Part shown: positions 10,245 to 16,880 of the stretch, piece by piece
How the letters are laid out: every line of letters begins with the position of its first letter
Position numbering within the stretch: the first letter of the stretch is position 1
Source of the DNA: a virus
DNA length: 31,896 nucleotides
Reading direction: 5' to 3' (one strand)
Virus record (IMG/VR): IMGVR_UViG_3300042556_000195
Coordinates: 1 to 31,896 of that record
Position numbers and translations under genes: made by a program
The notes under the pieces: generated by a model
Seen by the model: only the letters and a program-made list of their open reading frames with translations
Told to the model about the DNA's origin: nothing
Database searches by the model: none

Positions 10245-10417
10245 CGGCTGTAATCCAAATCAATGAACTTCCGGCCACGCTCATCAATCTTCACAATCGC
10301 CTTCGCAAATGTGAATGTCTGGTTAAACCATGCTGCGTATTCATCTATGCCAGTTGGCGCTCCGCTCTCACCAGGTGTTGGCTTGGCGTATGCGATGCTG
10401 TTCTTTCTCTCGTTCAT
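10241..10417 (-). CDS. Small protein after the replication gene (58 aa)
   Basis: Reads MNERKNSIAYAKPTPGESGA, then PTGIDEYAAWFNQTFTFAKA, ending RKFIDLDYSR. Its ATG overlaps the stop of the replication protein gene and its own stop overlaps the next start (ATGA both times). It is soluble with no recognised family. In this position some phages carry a helicase-loader-like gene, but this one is far too small for that. Confidence 0.74.
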   Translation of the reverse strand: MNERKNSIAYAKPTPGESGAPTGIDEYAAWFNQTFTFAKAIVKIDERGRKFIDLDYSR

Positions 10418-11103
10418 TTGTTGTATGCCCCTTCTATCAGCTTAACAAAGCTCTTCGGTTGTAGGAGGAAGTCAAAGTCAGCCTTCCAGCCCCTATCGTT
10501 TTCTCCACACAGGAACTTTGAATTGTAAATGGCTGCCATCGCAGTGGACCAATCCTCTGCGTCGTATTCCCTGATCCGCGCCTTGATCTGCCTTCGCCTG
10601 TTCTCTGTCAGCTTGACGATCTTAGCCAGACCACGATCCCCTGCCAAACTATTCCAAGCCTCAACAACATCATCGACTGTCAGGGCGTCATCGTCAGATG
10701 ACATATCTTCTTTAATTGGTTGTTGGTTATTGGTTATTGGTTCTTGGTTATTGGTTGGTTGAACGTCTGTTGAACGGACGTTGGACCGACGTTGAGCGGA
10801 TGCTTTACCAGCGTTGGATGCTTTCTCTGATTTTTGGCGGAAATGCGTTATTTCTGCATCGCAGCGGTCATGCTTCCAGCGGCCATCTTCTTCAACGTAA
10901 AAGAAGTCCTCAAGCACCTGAGCTACCTCTTGAACATTAACTCGCATACCGATCTGGCGGGCAACTTCTGCCTCATCGCCATACACTTCACCATCTTTGA
11001 GATAGTAAAGGTCGAGCAGCCGACGATAGGCCAAATCCTCCATCAATGAGAGGTGGCGTGTGTGGCTGGCGTAATCGCCGATATTAAATTGAAAATAGTG
11101 CAT
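10414..11103 (-). CDS. DUF1376 replication initiation protein (lambda O-like role)
   Basis: A 229-residue protein beginning MHYFQFNIGDYASHTRHLSL and MEDLAYRRLLDLYYL, the diagnostic start of the DUF1376 (YdaU-like) winged-helix domain (about residues 1-90). A low-complexity linker (about 105-135, with PTNNQEPITNNQQPI) follows. The C-terminal domain (about 145-225) contains NSLAGDRGLAKIVKLTENRR and ends FVKLIEGAYNK, as in phage replication proteins that bring host helicase to the origin. The linker DNA holds two arrays of direct repeats at 10715-10801, so the gene probably carries its own origin. GGAGG lies 6 nt before the ATG. No helicase or polymerase gene is nearby. Confidence 0.88.
   Translation of the reverse strand: MHYFQFNIGDYASHTRHLSLMEDLAYRRLLDLYYLKDGEVYGDEAEVARQIGMRVNVQEVAQVLEDFFYVEEDGRWKHDRCDAEITHFRQKSEKASNAGKASAQRRSNVRSTDVQPTNNQEPITNNQQPIKEDMSSDDDALTVDDVVEAWNSLAGDRGLAKIVKLTENRRRQIKARIREYDAEDWSTAMAAIYNSKFLCGENDRGWKADFDFLLQPKSFVKLIEGAYNK
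10687..10702. other. Short inverted repeat beside the iterons
   Basis: GTCATC, a 4-nt GTCA spacer and GATGAC form a 6-bp perfect inverted repeat just downstream (in gene sense) of the heptamer array. It may be a protein site or a small hairpin at the candidate origin. Short palindromes occur by chance, so support is weak. Confidence 0.35.
10715..10756. repeat. Iteron-like array 1: six tandem heptamers NTTGGTT
   Basis: Six head-to-tail 7-mers on the plus strand with first base A, G, A, A, C, A and the remaining TTGGTT invariant. The 7-nt period is not a multiple of three, so the repeat is not an amino-acid repeat at unit level; three units (21 nt) give the heptapeptide-like TNNQEPI/TNNQQPI. 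Invariance at codon third positions across changing phases points to selection on DNA. The position inside the replication protein gene matches lambda-type origins, where iterons bind the initiator encoded by the same gene. Confidence 0.85.
10758..10801. repeat. Iteron-like array 2: four tandem 11-mers, consensus GTTGAACGGAC
   Basis: Four contiguous 11-bp units: GTTGAACGTCT, GTTGAACGGAC, GTTGGACCGAC and GTTGAGCGGAT. They start one base after array 1 ends. A further related GTTGGATGCTT lies at 813-823 of the same kilobase (10813-10823). Eleven is not divisible by three, and 11 bp is about one helical turn, so an initiator could bind all units on one DNA face. Probably the second part of the origin. 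Confidence 0.8.
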
Positions 11104-11237: not shown

Positions 11238-11621
11238 TCAATCGTCGTTAAAAGCGCCATATTTGAACTTCGATCTCTTACGAAGGCCAAGATGATGCTG
11301 GACTGTTGAGATGTCCATCTTGAAGTAATTGCCGATCCGCTGCGGTCCCCAGCCTATCTCTTTATGGATAAGGTTCATCATCTCCCTGCGAGCAATCACA
11401 ACTGGCTTAATCCTAATAGAAGCAAATAGCTGATCCATCGTGAGATTATGCTTTTCCATGATGCGCTTGTGGATGCTCTCCATCTTCTCGCTGACAAAAA
11501 CAGGCTTATCGACTGTGATCGGCGGGATATAAAGTTCCGGCTCTTTTTCCTTGCGCTCTACCTTTGGCTCGGCAGCCTTTGGTGGCGGAGGAACATATCG
11601 GCTGTGTCTAATCGTTAACAT
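11238..11621 (-). CDS. Orphan DnaA domain IV-like DNA-binding protein (127 aa)
   Basis: The N-terminus (1-50) is Pro/Glu/Lys-rich and probably unstructured. The C-terminal half (about 60-118) reads like DnaA domain IV: HNLTMDQLFASIRIKPVVIA, then RREMMNLIHKEIGWGPQRIG and NYFKMDISTVQHHLG. That is the helix-turn-helix which in DnaA reads DNA boxes, here with MDIST in place of the usual RDHTT signature. No ATPase domain is present, so it cannot act as DnaA itself. It lies upstream of the replication gene and could bind origin DNA or compete with host DnaA. A GGGAG ribosome site precedes its ATG. Confidence 0.82.
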   Translation of the reverse strand: MLTIRHSRYVPPPPKAAEPKVERKEKEPELYIPPITVDKPVFVSEKMESIHKRIMEKHNLTMDQLFASIRIKPVVIARREMMNLIHKEIGWGPQRIGNYFKMDISTVQHHLGLRKRSKFKYGAFNDD

Positions 11622-12059: not shown

Positions 12060-12247
12060 TTGGCAGCTTTCAATTCGATTATCTCGTCTAGCGCCTGGGC
12101 AGCTTTGTTAAGCGTATCAAGTCGCGGGCTTTTATTCCTCCAGTTGGTAAATGATGATGGAGCAATCTTCGCCCTTTCCGCAATCGCCTTGCGTGTGATG
12201 CCATTGTATGCGGCCTTGGCGAGTAATTCCCTTACTTGAACGTGCAT
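12056..12247 (-). CDS. XRE/Cro-like HTH regulator (63 aa)
   Basis: Reads MHVQVRELLAKAAYNGITRK, then AIAERAKIAPSSFTNWRNKS and a C-terminal helix (TLNKAAQALDEIIELKAAK). The RKAIAERAKIAPSSFTNWR segment is a helix-turn-helix. The ATG at 12247 was chosen for its AAAGGAG ribosome site 7 nt upstream; a longer frame to 12295 would run into the promoter. The protein is only a DNA-binding domain, like Cro. It is the first leftward gene and is divergent from the recombination operon, so it probably controls the 12248-12374 region. Confidence 0.85.
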   Translation of the reverse strand: MHVQVRELLAKAAYNGITRKAIAERAKIAPSSFTNWRNKSPRLDTLNKAAQALDEIIELKAAK

Positions 12248-12374: not shown

Positions 12375-12563
12375 ATGTCTAATCACGAAACAATCCTTGC
12401 AATCTTAGATGCTGAACGCGGTGAGCCTTATGGCGACACGGCTTCGTTCAAGCTCGGCTATCTCATTCTTATGCTGACAAGCATTGCAGACCACCATCCA
12501 GATGTAGCCGATGAGCTACAGGACCGCCTTGACCATCTTAACCGCTTGAAGGGAAATAAATAA
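12375..12563 (+). CDS. First gene of the rightward operon, unknown function (62 aa)
   Basis: Begins MSNHETILAILDAERGEPYG, with a helix SFKLGYLILMLTSIADHHPD and an end DHLNRLKGNK. A GGGAG ribosome site lies 9 nt before the ATG. The stop overlaps the ERF start (TAATG). It is acidic and helical, with no family recognised. The rightward promoter feeding it must lie in 12301-12360, but I see no convincing -35/-10 pair there. Confidence 0.74.
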   Translation: MSNHETILAILDAERGEPYGDTASFKLGYLILMLTSIADHHPDVADELQDRLDHLNRLKGNK

Positions 12564-13120
12564 TGACTGTTTATGCCAAACTGAACGCTGCTCGTGCGGC
12601 ATTCCATGCCAAGTCACTGAAGAAGTCTGGCAAGAATAGCTTTGCAGGATATTCCTACTTTGAGTTGGGAGACTTTCTCATCCCCGCACTGCAAGTCTTT
12701 GAAACTTATGGGCTTTGTCCGATTGTTTCCTTTACCGCAGAGGTGGCGACACTAATTCTTGTAGACACAGAAAATGGTGACACGATAACATTCACTAGCC
12801 CGATGGCAGATGCAAACCTCAAGGGAACGCATCCAATCCAGAACCTTGGCGCAGTTGAGACATATCAGCGTCGCTATCTCTACATGATTGCGCTGGAGAT
12901 TGTTGAACACGACGCCATCGACGCATCCAAGCCTTTGGAAGATGCGCCTGTCAGCAAGGGCATCAGCCGGGATCAACTCGACCAGGTGCAAGACCTTATC
13001 GCAGCAACCCAAAGCGATGTTGTCGCCATATGCAAAAAGCTGAAGGTAAACAGCCTCAAAGAGATGACGCAAGAGCAATACGCATACGTCACTGGCGTAT
13101 TAGAAAAGAAGAAGGGCTAA
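12563..13120 (+). CDS. erf: ERF-family single-strand annealing protein
   Basis: A 185-residue protein with the ERF-type core: KLNAARAAFHAKSLKKSGKN, SFAGYSYFELGDFLIPALQ and later NLKGTHPIQNLGAVETYQRR, then YLYMIALEIVEHDAID. The GYxYxxLxD...GAxxTYxRRY pattern is typical of phage annealing proteins that bind ssDNA at resected ends and pair homologous strands. The C-terminus is Gln/Lys-rich and acts as a tail. It is translationally coupled to the gene before it and followed two bases later by the exonuclease that would make its substrate. Confidence 0.9.
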   Translation: MTVYAKLNAARAAFHAKSLKKSGKNSFAGYSYFELGDFLIPALQVFETYGLCPIVSFTAEVATLILVDTENGDTITFTSPMADANLKGTHPIQNLGAVETYQRRYLYMIALEIVEHDAIDASKPLEDAPVSKGISRDQLDQVQDLIAATQSDVVAICKKLKVNSLKEMTQEQYAYVTGVLEKKKG

Positions 13121-13122
13121 TT

Positions 13123-13746
13123 ATGGAACAGCGCAGCGAAGAATGGTTTGCGGCTAGGTGCGGCTCCCTTGGGGCCAGCCAACTTAACGAAGCTCTTGCC
13201 ACCACTAAGAATGGCTGGGGAGCATCCAGAGAGAACCTGAAGAACAGGATTATCGCTGAGAGGCTCACAGGAACGCCTACAGAGTCGTTTACTAATGCAG
13301 CTATGCAATGGGGCGTAGATCAGGAAGATAACGCTAGAAAGGCTTATGAGGCTCATACAGGCACATTTGTGGATGAGATGGGTATCGCGTTCCATCCTGC
13401 CCTGAAGCATACTCACGCAAGTCCTGATGGCCTTGTTGGTGATGATGGGCTTCTGGAGATAAAGTGTCCCAATACGACAACGCATATCGAGACGCTAAAG
13501 TCGCAGAAGGTTCCAATCAAATACATGAACCAAATGCTGTGGCAGATGCGCTGCGTAGATCGGCAGTGGTGCGATTACGTTTCGTTCGATCCCCGTCTGC
13601 CGCAACACCTACAGTTGTTTGTGAAGCGTGTTGAGCGTGACGATGCAGCCATCGCTGAATTGGAAGCTAAGGTGGCTGAGTTTCTGACTGAAGTTGAAGG
13701 TGAGATTGAAGAACTGAACAGGAGATTTTCAGATGACGCAGAATGA
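13123..13746 (+). CDS. YqaJ-family (lambda exonuclease-like) nuclease
   Basis: I chose ATG 13123, which follows the ERF stop directly; the longer frame starts inside ERF. The protein (207 aa) starts MEQRSEEWFAARCGSLGASQ, the usual YqaJ opening (S-EEW...R-G-L-ASQ). It has the active site SPDGLV (D102) and LEIKCPN (E112-x-K114) of the PD-(D/E)xK fold, and the helix NQMLWQM (Q137). It would degrade the 5' strand from DNA ends and load the ERF protein. Length and motif order are normal for the family. Confidence 0.93.
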   Translation: MEQRSEEWFAARCGSLGASQLNEALATTKNGWGASRENLKNRIIAERLTGTPTESFTNAAMQWGVDQEDNARKAYEAHTGTFVDEMGIAFHPALKHTHASPDGLVGDDGLLEIKCPNTTTHIETLKSQKVPIKYMNQMLWQMRCVDRQWCDYVSFDPRLPQHLQLFVKRVERDDAAIAELEAKVAEFLTEVEGEIEELNRRFSDDAE

Positions 13747-14059
13747 ACAGGTTTTGTCTTGGCTGAAGAAGTCCCACATCGGCCCAATGGCAGCAATGCG
13801 TGAGCTTGGCGTGATGCGTCTGGCAGCGCGGATTAAAGACCTCCGCGACGACGGCCATCACATTGAGATGACTTGGGATTACGTCACTGATCGCTATGGA
13901 CAGGAGCGTCGGGTTGCACGTTACACATTGAAGGAATTGGCAAATGGCTCTTCCACAGAGAATAAAGACAAAATCGGACAAAGCGGATCGGGGGAAGAGA
14001 AGCCCAGCGCATCGAGCATGGGTTCGTGGCTTCGCTTGCTCGGCCTGCGGGTCAACTGA
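13733..14059 (+). CDS. Helix-turn-helix protein (108 aa)
   Basis: Begins MTQNEQVLSWLKKSHIGPMA, then AMRELGVMRLAARIKDLRDD with a winged-helix continuation GHHIEMTWDYVTDRYGQERR and VARYTLKEL. This corresponds to the small phage HTH domain where gene-order regulators such as HTH_39 belong (pattern call). Its gene overlaps the exonuclease end by 14 nt and the next gene by 116 nt. The residues after about 67 are Ser/Gly-rich and encoded in the overlap, so they may be spare sequence. It may regulate the operon or bind DNA in recombination. Confidence 0.78.
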   Translation: MTQNEQVLSWLKKSHIGPMAAMRELGVMRLAARIKDLRDDGHHIEMTWDYVTDRYGQERRVARYTLKELANGSSTENKDKIGQSGSGEEKPSASSMGSWLRLLGLRVN

Positions 14060-14285
14060 GGCGATTGAGTGCGCCCACGTTCGTAACGGAACAGACGGCG
14101 GCATAGGTCTAAAGCCATCCGACAAATGGACGATTAGCCTGTGCAAGACTTGCCATTCCCAGCAGCATCAGCAAGGTGAGGAAACCTTCGCAAAGGCTCA
14201 TGGGATTAACCTGAAAGCGTTGGCTGAAGAGTTTTTTAGAAACAGCCCTCACAAGAGGAAATTAGAAAATGACAATACCGAATGA
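13944..14285 (+). CDS. HNH-like nuclease, DUF968/RecA-dependent nuclease type (113 aa)
   Basis: Two Cys pairs and a His pair form a treble-clef-type site: FACSACGSTEAIECAHVRNG, then GIGLKPSDKWTISLCKTCHS with QQHQQGEETF. C-x2-C...C-A-H-V...C-x2-C-H-x3-H is the order in the DUF968/Ref (P1 RecA-dependent nuclease) group. The N-terminus is basic and the C-terminus helical. It sits among recombination genes between the HTH protein and the GapR-like gene. It is likely to cut DNA in recombination intermediates; specificity unknown. Confidence 0.84.
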   Translation: MALPQRIKTKSDKADRGKRSPAHRAWVRGFACSACGSTEAIECAHVRNGTDGGIGLKPSDKWTISLCKTCHSQQHQQGEETFAKAHGINLKALAEEFFRNSPHKRKLENDNTE

Positions 14286-14592
14286 TGTTCCCGTCTCCGA
14301 GCGTTTCCGATTGGCAGCTATGGAGTGGGCAGAACTGGATAACGCAGCCAGGATGCTGGAAGAAGGCAAGACGACATACCTTGCCCAGCAAAAGACGAAG
14401 CTTGGCGATATGCCTGAAGCAAAATCAGAGCGCATCGTTAAGTCATCCAAGGAATGGTCGGATTACATCAAGTCGATGGTTCGGTCTAAAACAGCCGCCA
14501 ACAAAGCTCGTATCGAGATGGATTACCTCAAGATGCGTATGCAGGAATGGATCGCGGCGGAAGCTAATAATCGTGTAGAAAGGAAAATGTGA
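14269..14592 (+). CDS. Helical phage protein of unknown function (107 aa)
   Basis: Begins MTIPNDVPVSERFRLAAMEW. The whole chain is helical and charged (ELDNAARMLEEGKTTYLAQQ, then KSMVRSKTAANKARIEMDYL, ending AEANNRVERKM) with coiled-coil character, like an all-alpha phage accessory protein. It overlaps the HNH gene by 17 nt and its stop overlaps the next start (TGATG). No enzyme motif. Conserved position suggests a partner in recombination. Confidence 0.76.
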   Translation: MTIPNDVPVSERFRLAAMEWAELDNAARMLEEGKTTYLAQQKTKLGDMPEAKSERIVKSSKEWSDYIKSMVRSKTAANKARIEMDYLKMRMQEWIAAEANNRVERKM

Positions 14593-14897
14593 TGGCAGAT
14601 TTTGTTGTATCTGACGAGACAAGACGTTTGATTGGTAAAATTGTCGAAGAAGAGGATTTGATTGTAATGAATATAGCAGCAGATGAACTCCGCCTTTTGA
14701 TTGAGCGGATTGAAAATCTTGAAACAGATAAGAAAGCTGTCTCGGAGGATATTCGGGAAGTTTATTCGGAAGCAAAGAGCCGTGGTTTTGATACCAAGAT
14801 TATGCGCCAGATCGTGAAGCTCCGCACAATGAAGACACGTGAGCGAAAGGAATGGGAAGCCGTTTTAGACACATATATCTCAGCGTTAGGAATGTAA
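14592..14897 (+). CDS. GapR/DUF2312-like nucleoid protein
   Basis: A 101-residue protein starting at the ATG at 14592; a GTG codon directly upstream is possible. The C-terminal 65 residues are a clear DUF2312 match: LIERIENLETDKKAVSEDIR, EVYSEAKSRGFDTKIMRQIV and a closing LDTYISALGM. In Caulobacter GapR clamps overtwisted, AT-rich DNA ahead of replication forks and stimulates topoisomerases. The phage copy has a longer acidic N-terminus. It lies between recombination genes and SSB, so it may organise phage DNA or divert host topology factors. The family suggests an alphaproteobacterial host. Confidence 0.92.
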   Translation: MADFVVSDETRRLIGKIVEEEDLIVMNIAADELRLLIERIENLETDKKAVSEDIREVYSEAKSRGFDTKIMRQIVKLRTMKTRERKEWEAVLDTYISALGM

Positions 14898-14898
14898 G

Positions 14899-15282
14899 AT
14901 GCAAAAAATTGTAATTACAGGCGGACTTGGCCGCGATGCAGAACTGAAGCAAACCAAGTCAGGTGAAGATGTTCTGACATTTCCAATCGGAGCCTCACAG
15001 GGCTATGGAGACAGCAAGACGACCAACTGGTATCGTTGCAGCCTCTGGGGCAAGCGGGCGCGTTCATTGCAGCCGTATCTGCTCAAAGGCGCAAAGGTTG
15101 CCGCTTCTGGTTCGCTGGTGATCGGTGAATACGAAGGCAAGACGCAGCTTAACATCACTGTCGATGAAGTTGAGTTTATGTCACGCGCTGAGAACGCCCA
15201 GAGACAGCCTACAGCGCACGACAAGGCGAAGGCCAACGGATACCAGCCAGAACCATTTGATGACTTGGATACGCCATTTTGA
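14899..15282 (+). CDS. ssb: Single-stranded DNA-binding protein
   Basis: A 127-residue OB-fold protein: MQKIVITGGLGRDAELKQTK, then a conserved FPIGASQGYG...TNWYRCSLWGKRA stretch and YLLKGAKVAASGSLVIGEYE. The disordered C-terminus ends EPFDDLDTPF, the acidic tip plus terminal Phe through which bacterial SSB recruits repair and replication proteins. That tip suggests the phage SSB talks to host enzymes. It follows the GapR-like gene by one base. Confidence 0.94.
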   Translation: MQKIVITGGLGRDAELKQTKSGEDVLTFPIGASQGYGDSKTTNWYRCSLWGKRARSLQPYLLKGAKVAASGSLVIGEYEGKTQLNITVDEVEFMSRAENAQRQPTAHDKAKANGYQPEPFDDLDTPF

Positions 15283-15506
15283 TGGAGGATGTCGTGAAGG
15301 AATTGCTACCACAAGCTCGCAAGATTGTCGCAAAAGGTTTTCGTGAAAACTCAGTTGTGTATCGCGGCGTTATGGGTGGGCAATGGGATGGCGGAATAGC
15401 TATCCAGAAGGCGTTGAAGGATTTAATCAATGGCGGAAAGGCTTATGCCAAGCTGCCAGAGGAATTACCTCCTGAGACGCCACTTAATATCATTGACGAC
15501 GAATAA
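15282..15506 (+). CDS. Last gene of the rightward operon, unknown (74 aa)
   Basis: I chose ATG 15282, which overlaps the SSB stop (TGATG). The protein reads MEDVVKELLPQARKIVAKGF, then VVYRGVMGGQWDGGIAIQKA, ending PLNIIDDE. It is compact, with no membrane segment and no recognised family. It is followed by a 50-bp gap and the terminator. Confidence 0.7.
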   Translation: MEDVVKELLPQARKIVAKGFRENSVVYRGVMGGQWDGGIAIQKALKDLINGGKAYAKLPEELPPETPLNIIDDE

Positions 15507-15717: not shown

Positions 15718-16880
15718 TATAGACCGCCATCTTGTTGAGGTTGTGTAGCAAGGAGTCCGCCGCCAGCGAGTGCTGGAATTGCGATGCCGTATTTCTTGAG
15801 GATTTCAATTAGCGCATCATTGAAGACAACGTAGTTTCTAGTTGCGTTTTCCATTCCACGAGTTCCAGCGTCTTTATATCTAATCCCAGGTATTCCCATT
15901 CCCGCAAGAGCTTGAGATAGTTCGGCAGGCGTTGCCTTGTCGGCCTTTATTATATCACCAGCAAACATTGGGTTTCTTGAAGCAAGGCTTAATCTGTCAG
16001 CGGCTGCTAACAAATCACTTTCACCAAGAAGTTCCCTAACTTTTTGATTTTGCCCACTTAAAACAGTGTCCCAATCTATAAAATCTTCAGGATTTGCGTT
16101 AATCCGCACTTGATACATTGATCCGCCTCCGACGCCTCCGCCGCGTTTTCTTGCAGACAATTCATCTATCGCCGCTTTTTTTATAGCAACTAATCCATCG
16201 CGCCTAAATACGTCACCACCACCATTCGGAAGCGACATTAGCCGATCTATTTCAGATTGAGCCTCACTAATTGCATCGTCTATATTTTCGTTTTTTGCGA
16301 GAAGTCTATTGGCTGAACTTTTAACTCTTCCAGACAATTCATCTCGATATTTTTTTGCCACTTCCTCAGCTTCAGCAAAATACAAACCATGCCCATAGGC
16401 TTGAGCGCCTTCGCCTGTTCCAATCTTGCTGATGTCAAAACGATCAAAGCTATGCGGGCTTCCGTGGTATGCAATAATTCCACGCTCTGCCGCTGTATCA
16501 GCAACATCTTTGGCTACTTTTGCAGCCTTACCGCCAGGAACAGCCCCTAAAGCTGCCAGAATGCCTGTTGAGGCTGCGTTGCCAACATTCCCTGCCTGAT
16601 ACGCTCTACGGGCGTCCACAAGGCCTGTCAGAAAGCCCAGAGGAGACATCTCAACGGCAGGAGCAATCTTTGCAGCAAGCTCGTTCCCAAAGCGTGTATT
16701 TGGCGTCAAAAGCTGTGCAAGTTCTGTCGCAGCCGATGGCCGTGGTGCGCGGGTGATTGTTCCCGGCAACTTCTGACCAGGCTTAATCTTGCTGACCTCA
16801 CGGAGATATGGGCTGACATAAGGCTTGGCAGATGAGCCAAAGCCAAGTGCGTCTGCAATTCTCAGTGGTTTCTTGGCCAT
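15717..16880 (-). CDS. Ejection-type virion protein with ADP-ribosyltransferase-like domain (387 aa)
   Basis: The N-terminal 130 residues are Ala/Gly/Pro-rich and helical, like the other internal virion proteins upstream. Residues about 135-360 match the ADP-ribosyltransferase module found in phage polyvalent proteins: IIAYHGSPHSFDRFDISKIG, then GEGAQAYGHGLYFAE (H139 and Y167 would be the H-Y positions), VAKKYRD, a typical RINANPEDFIDWD strand, and the closing GIRYKDAGTRG...TRNYVVFNDALIEI. The third catalytic residue is not clear. Family members transfer ADP-ribose from NAD to protein targets. It is downstream of the lytic transglycosylase in one coupled block, so it is probably packed and injected, like T4 Alt. 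A hydrophobic segment lies near the C-terminus. Confidence 0.82.
   Translation of the reverse strand: MAKKPLRIADALGFGSSAKPYVSPYLREVSKIKPGQKLPGTITRAPRPSAATELAQLLTPNTRFGNELAAKIAPAVEMSPLGFLTGLVDARRAYQAGNVGNAASTGILAALGAVPGGKAAKVAKDVADTAAERGIIAYHGSPHSFDRFDISKIGTGEGAQAYGHGLYFAEAEEVAKKYRDELSGRVKSSANRLLAKNENIDDAISEAQSEIDRLMSLPNGGGDVFRRDGLVAIKKAAIDELSARKRGGGVGGGSMYQVRINANPEDFIDWDTVLSGQNQKVRELLGESDLLAAADRLSLASRNPMFAGDIIKADKATPAELSQALAGMGIPGIRYKDAGTRGMENATRNYVVFNDALIEILKKYGIAIPALAGGGLLATQPQQDGGL

Follow-up and report, generated by a model that had tools for sequence, protein, structure and literature searches.

Replication origins that lie inside the gene of their own initiator are already known. In lambdoid phages, iterons and an easily melted tract occupy the middle of gene O, and the O protein binds the iterons as duplex DNA and the tract as a single strand (PMC7466680). 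In the RepA_N plasmid pSK41, four Rep boxes are found where rep codes for a linker that is dispensable and joins the DNA-binding N-terminal domain to the C-terminal domain, both of them DnaD-like (PMC5703833). Additionally, TrfA of plasmid RK2 and other Rep proteins bind one strand of the repeats in the DNA unwinding element (DUE) in a sequence-specific manner, and the RK2 iterons stand beside these tandem repeats (PMC4081077).

Here, we describe a candidate origin of this kind in a gene of the DUF1376 family, found in a window of 31,896 nt that comprises positions 1 to 31,896 of the IMG/VR virus record IMGVR_UViG_3300042556_000195. The contig forms a circle of 31,769 bp and has a terminal repeat of 127 bp. 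The features discussed below are as follows.

10414–11103, minus strand: gene of the putative DUF1376 replication initiator (229 aa; Pfam PF07120, E 1.2e-21; PHROG matches)
10849–11100, minus strand: DUF1376 N-terminal winged-helix-like domain, residues 2–85 (Pfam range; AlphaFold pLDDT about 90+ over residues 11–80)
10786–10809, minus strand: basic peptide GKASAQRR, residues 99–106, at the end of a long helix (79–107); presumed specificity determinant (AlphaFold helix; peptide and 11-mer types change together)
10754–10797, minus strand: four 11-bp iterons of the GTTCAACGGAC consensus family (TRF, shuffles, lag-11 excess over a codon-preserving null in relatives)
10715–10756, minus strand: six AACCAAT heptamers; presumed unwinding or loading element (TRF, shuffles, family-wide conservation, stop avoidance, low stability)
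10687–10702, minus strand: small hairpin GTCATC-TGAC-GATGAC immediately after the heptamers (folding energy −4.6 kcal/mol, z −3.63)
10432–10677, minus strand: C-terminal helical domain, residues 143–224, of the O-like or DnaD-like helicase-loader type (matches to PHROG 345 and 10469; AlphaFold model)

The assignment of the protein to PF07120 is secure by score (77.2 bits against a gathering cut-off of 30.1), RepA_N (PF06970) is absent from its Pfam matches at E 0.1, and on these matches we class it as a DUF1376 member, not as RepA_N. Its PHROG matches are labelled 'primosomal protein', 'replication initiation O-like', and 'DnaD-like helicase loader'. Structural comparison of the N-terminal domain returned winged-helix DNA-binding domains as the best matches, all weak (Z 5–6), and Foldseek ranked a DnaD N-terminal domain second, likewise weakly (E 1.3); the structure search with the DUF1376 protein found no strong relative. 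AlphaFold predicts a disordered linker at residues 108–137 that is largely encoded by the two arrays, which, together with the Pfam match, bears out the suggestion in an earlier note on this DNA that the repeats encode the low-complexity linker of a DUF1376 protein. In named phages, the DUF1376 gene directly precedes a gene for a DnaB-like helicase (Acinetobacter phage RM_A2) or a primase/helicase (Pseudomonas phage phPA-G), much as O precedes P in lambda.

Tandem Repeats Finder (TRF) reports a period of 7 with 6.0 copies at 10715–10756 (score 70) and a period of 11 with 3.9 copies at 10758–10800 (score 44). Read on the coding (minus) strand, the 11-mers come first, from 10797 down to 10754 (GCTCAACGTCG, GTCCAACGTCC, GTTCAACAGAC, and GTTCAACCAAC), followed by the heptamers from 10756 down to 10715 (AACCAAT, AACCAAG, AACCAAT, AACCAAT, AACCAAC, and AACCAAT). 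A fifth CAACG near 10816 keeps to the same 11-bp grid, 22 bp (two 11-bp steps) upstream of the 11-mers. These arrays are the strongest repeats of their periods in the window (31 of 35 matches for period 7, next best 19; 24 of 33 for period 11, next best 18), and neither was matched in any of 200 shuffles of the whole window under a first-order Markov model, in agreement with the earlier report of six 7-bp and four 11-bp units inside the replication gene. That report had also placed the arrays back to back with one base between them; they are indeed adjacent, but the gap does not exist, since the last 11-mer and the first heptamer share 3 bp and the arrays interlock. Across the family, stems following the array are longer (5.22) than those of codon-resampled controls (4.15).

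The locus resembles the lambda origin in having tandem iterons, kept as DNA, together with an adjacent tract of low predicted stability inside the coding sequence of the initiator, a helicase-loading gene next to it, and a hairpin after the array. The likeness to the origin in gene O that had been drawn from the sequence earlier therefore holds for this origin-like pair of arrays in the linker. Lambda differs in that its four iterons measure about 20 bp each and its AT-rich tract is not built from tandem units, whereas the DUF1376 case shows 11-bp iterons of several swappable types, an A/C-rich 7-nt array, and a DUF1376 domain at the N-terminus. The pSK41 origin likewise occupies linker-encoding DNA of its rep gene; it belongs, however, to a different Pfam family from Gram-positive plasmids, and the accessible part of its description mentions no heptamer array (PMC5703833). 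RK2 shares the juxtaposition of iterons and tandem repeats in the unwinding element, but its 13-mers lie outside the initiator gene and its Rep proteins carry two winged helices, unlike the DUF1376 protein (PMC4081077).

The conservation of the arrays was assessed in relatives chosen by protein similarity from viral contigs and bacterial genomes and dereplicated at 70% identity to 113 genes, using a null in which synonymous codons of the linker were redrawn and self-similarity was measured by lag. Lag 7 exceeded this null with a mean z of 3.22 (81 genes at p<0.01) and lag 11 with a mean z of 2.46 (40 genes); the other multiples gave 3.09 (lag 14), 1.95 (lag 22), and 1.49 (lag 21), lag 6 gave 1.01, and all remaining lags were at or below 0.62. 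After codon randomization, the unexplained periods are thus mainly 7 and 11 with their multiples. In a first gene set, lag 7 had been significant in 48 of 53 genes. The earlier argument that a period not divisible by three already rules out repetition at the protein level does not suffice, because three heptamers make 21 nt, or seven codons, and yield the repeat NNQEPIT; it is the codon-preserving test that excludes protein repetition and upholds repetition at the DNA level.

The use of individual bases leads to the same picture. The last base of the heptamer is T in 63 of 71 and 79 of 100 cases at the two harmless codon positions (142 of 171 together) and in 0 of 98 where T would create a stop (TAA); the substitution of T is thus tied to the places where the code does not allow it. 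The AAG and AAC variants in the window fall at exactly such places. Codon choice inside the arrays also departs from that outside (ATA 82% versus 22%, CCA 92% versus 29%, ACC 74% versus 28%), and one DNA unit is read as different peptides among relatives (NNQEPIT, HQTPVTN). Aligning related genes, as had been proposed, showed the arrays kept as DNA while the amino acids drift, and relatives with the same protein but no repeats, named beforehand as counter-evidence, are confined to a few distant members (L064, L073). A 7-nt array is absent from 31 DUF1376 genes; in many of these, 6-nt or degenerate A/C-rich repeats take its place, and a few show no repeats at all. Units of 6 nt (AACCAG, CCAACA) replace the heptamers at the same place in Bordetella phage IFTN2 (L366), L231, and L238. 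A+C richness as a feature in itself surpasses the codon null in only 8 of 82 genes with arrays, so that period and word matter, not composition alone; the C content of the array follows gene GC weakly (rho 0.20, p 0.07).

The heptamer also marks the family. When viral contigs were scanned with four tandem copies of AACCANN and gene context was assigned by HMM, 110 of 120 sites among the matches listed lay in DUF1376 genes, compared with 5 of 129 for a permuted word and 35 of 119 for AACCANN at 8-nt spacing, again among the matches listed; the raw pattern counts (at least 120, 129, and 119, respectively) are uninformative and gene context alone discriminates. Within DUF1376 genes the unit length is 6, 7, or 8, with 7 the commonest, and heptamers accompany every cassette type described below as well as several unrelated clusters of C-terminal domains. 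The distance from the last iteron core to the first heptamer is 7 nt in 24 of 27 genes of the GKASA type and 8 nt in 11 of 13 of the GAAKRW type. The array ranks among the least stable 0.3–0.5% of all 42-bp stretches in the window, and its median position within genes of the family is the 4.8th percentile of stability. It is not AT-rich in absolute terms, is predicted to be unstructured as a single strand, and has a G-poor coding strand (5%).

The heptamers are constant; the 11-mers come in several types, each with its own basic peptide directly after the DUF1376 domain.

GKASA: 11-bp repeat TTCAACG
GGRPK: 11-bp repeat AACCC
GAAKRW: 11-bp repeat CCCCCTAAT
SAxARW: 11-bp repeat GAACGCA

Cross-tabulation of peptide against iteron in 63 genes gave 19, 17, 14, and 13 on the diagonal and no crossed combination, with word sets and peptide classes that had been defined after inspection of the same sequences; the mutual information was 1.02, against a maximum of 0.27 in 2000 shuffles. 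In each of the four main iteron classes, taken separately, the strongest lag is 11. On the tree of the DUF1376 domain, the cassette type changes at least 18 times, and L010 and L011 carry different cassettes on domains that are 94% identical. Independent-pair tests on supported branches offered 3–5 pairs per class, each below significance and none in the opposite direction. Covariation of this sort could arise from linkage without recognition, given that the motif adjoins the iteron; recognition of the sites by the peptide is what we infer.

Taken together, the two arrays and their conservation as DNA across the family, the peptide types that covary with iteron types, the unchanging heptamer, its set distance from the iterons, and the low stability of the duplex point to a lambda-like replication origin in the interdomain linker of the initiator, which we consider the probable function of this region, the 11-mers serving as DUF1376 iterons and the heptamers as the unwinding and loading element. 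In the scheme that we infer from sequence, which extends to protein binding, strand opening, helicase loading, and origin function, the 11-bp iterons would be bound in duplex form by the DUF1376 protein, with one site on each turn of the DNA, and the basic end of the protein's long helix would be the main determinant of specificity. Since the DNA coding for this peptide adjoins the iterons and in part consists of them, peptide and sites would move together as a cassette. Iteron binding would then open the adjacent A/C-rich heptamer array, which may act as both unwinding element and landing site for a helicase loaded through the C-terminal domain of DUF1376 or for a neighbouring helicase. In this respect, the DUF1376 system would work like those of lambda and pSK41. 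Whether DUF1376 phages in general share one composite origin, consisting of the constant 7-nt array and a swappable peptide/iteron cassette, with the initiator or its helicase partner reading the array in single-stranded form, we judge to be an evenly balanced question. A GC-skew minimum expected near 10.7 kb was not seen (detrended minimum at 12095, maximum at 15850); skew is uninformative on the origin here, and its extrema mark the borders of the one block of plus-strand genes. This block (12375–15506, plus strand; Erf, YqaJ exonuclease, HNH, and SSB) is the sole stretch of positive skew.

An alternative that we regard as unlikely, though it fares best of those considered, is that the heptamers are double-stranded sites of a second protein, either a host factor or the orphan DnaA domain IV protein put forward in the earlier note. 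A reader shared by the whole family would fit heptamers that stay constant across iteron types and C-terminal domains, and in the window the DnaA domain IV gene lies just upstream (11238–11621, minus strand; Pfam Bac_DnaA_C 31.7 bits, just above the cut-off of 31.5). However, of 112 dereplicated DUF1376 loci, 81 have heptamer arrays but just 7 have this gene nearby; all seven belong to the closest clade of the window, and the gene is also found beside relatives with a different 11-mer (L011, L014–L017). This distribution excludes the protein as a reader that serves either array in general, though it may have a clade-specific role. A host factor would need wide conservation, as the hosts span Beta- and Gammaproteobacteria, with Chlorobi and further lineages appearing as MAG matches. 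Furthermore, side-by-side helix-turn-helix sites would be cramped at 7 bp, and heptamer spacing varies from 6 to 8. Instability, lack of single-strand structure, and low G content would suit strand opening and loading better than they would a series of sites bound by protein as duplex. Such an element would have parallels in the RK2 DUE repeats and in the AT-rich tract of lambdoid phages, which Rep and O proteins, respectively, bind as single strands (PMC4081077, PMC7466680).

A regulatory role of the two arrays in transcription or copy number, through autorepression or handcuffing, with the origin elsewhere, is rather improbable: plasmid iterons are often regulatory and initiation at the arrays is itself deduced, but the position in a linker beside a low-stability element fits an origin better than regulation. 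We give very little credence to the repeats being a by-product of a low-complexity linker or of neutral slippage. The NNQEPIT repeat spelled by three heptamers and the predicted disorder of the linker would suit it, yet the repeats exceed the codon-preserving null, T is retained wherever it is stop-free, rare codons such as ATA and CCA are favoured in the arrays, the encoded peptides differ over the same DNA unit, and slippage by one 7-nt unit would be a frameshift. Equally far-fetched is a G-quadruplex on the GT-rich complement, or a Rho loading site on a transcript with regular CC steps and no G; GG runs recur every 7 nt on the complement and GGG runs occur in some members (L074, L250, L258), but in L213, L062, and L359 the 7-nt period persists although CC/GG runs are missing or nearly so, and neither structure holds as a family-wide function in such members.

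If the arrays are indeed origins, the likely role of DUF1376, a widespread phage family still named for its unknown function, would be that of an origin-binding initiator. In a literature search whose scope took in few subscription papers, we found no paper joining DUF1376 with iterons and no description of the family-wide heptamer or of the peptide/iteron cassette. The DNA signature could locate the replication origins of hundreds of uncultivated phages from sequence, the exchange of a short peptide together with its sites on near-identical domains would make initiator specificity directly testable, and the constant heptamer may offer a defined starting point for studying DNA opening by phage initiators.

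Several minor observations were also made. In the high-GC members L236, L250, L258, L315, and L361, the complement of the array carries GGG runs that could form G-quadruplexes. Two AACCA heptamer arrays occur on the single contig L198 (2184–2223 and 6257–6303), both in open frames outside the DUF1376 family. An annotated CRISPR-spacer match (L364, 1861–1890; MG592549.1, 27814–27843) falls within the DUF1376 gene of Vibrio phage 1.183.O, in or near the iteron-encoding linker.
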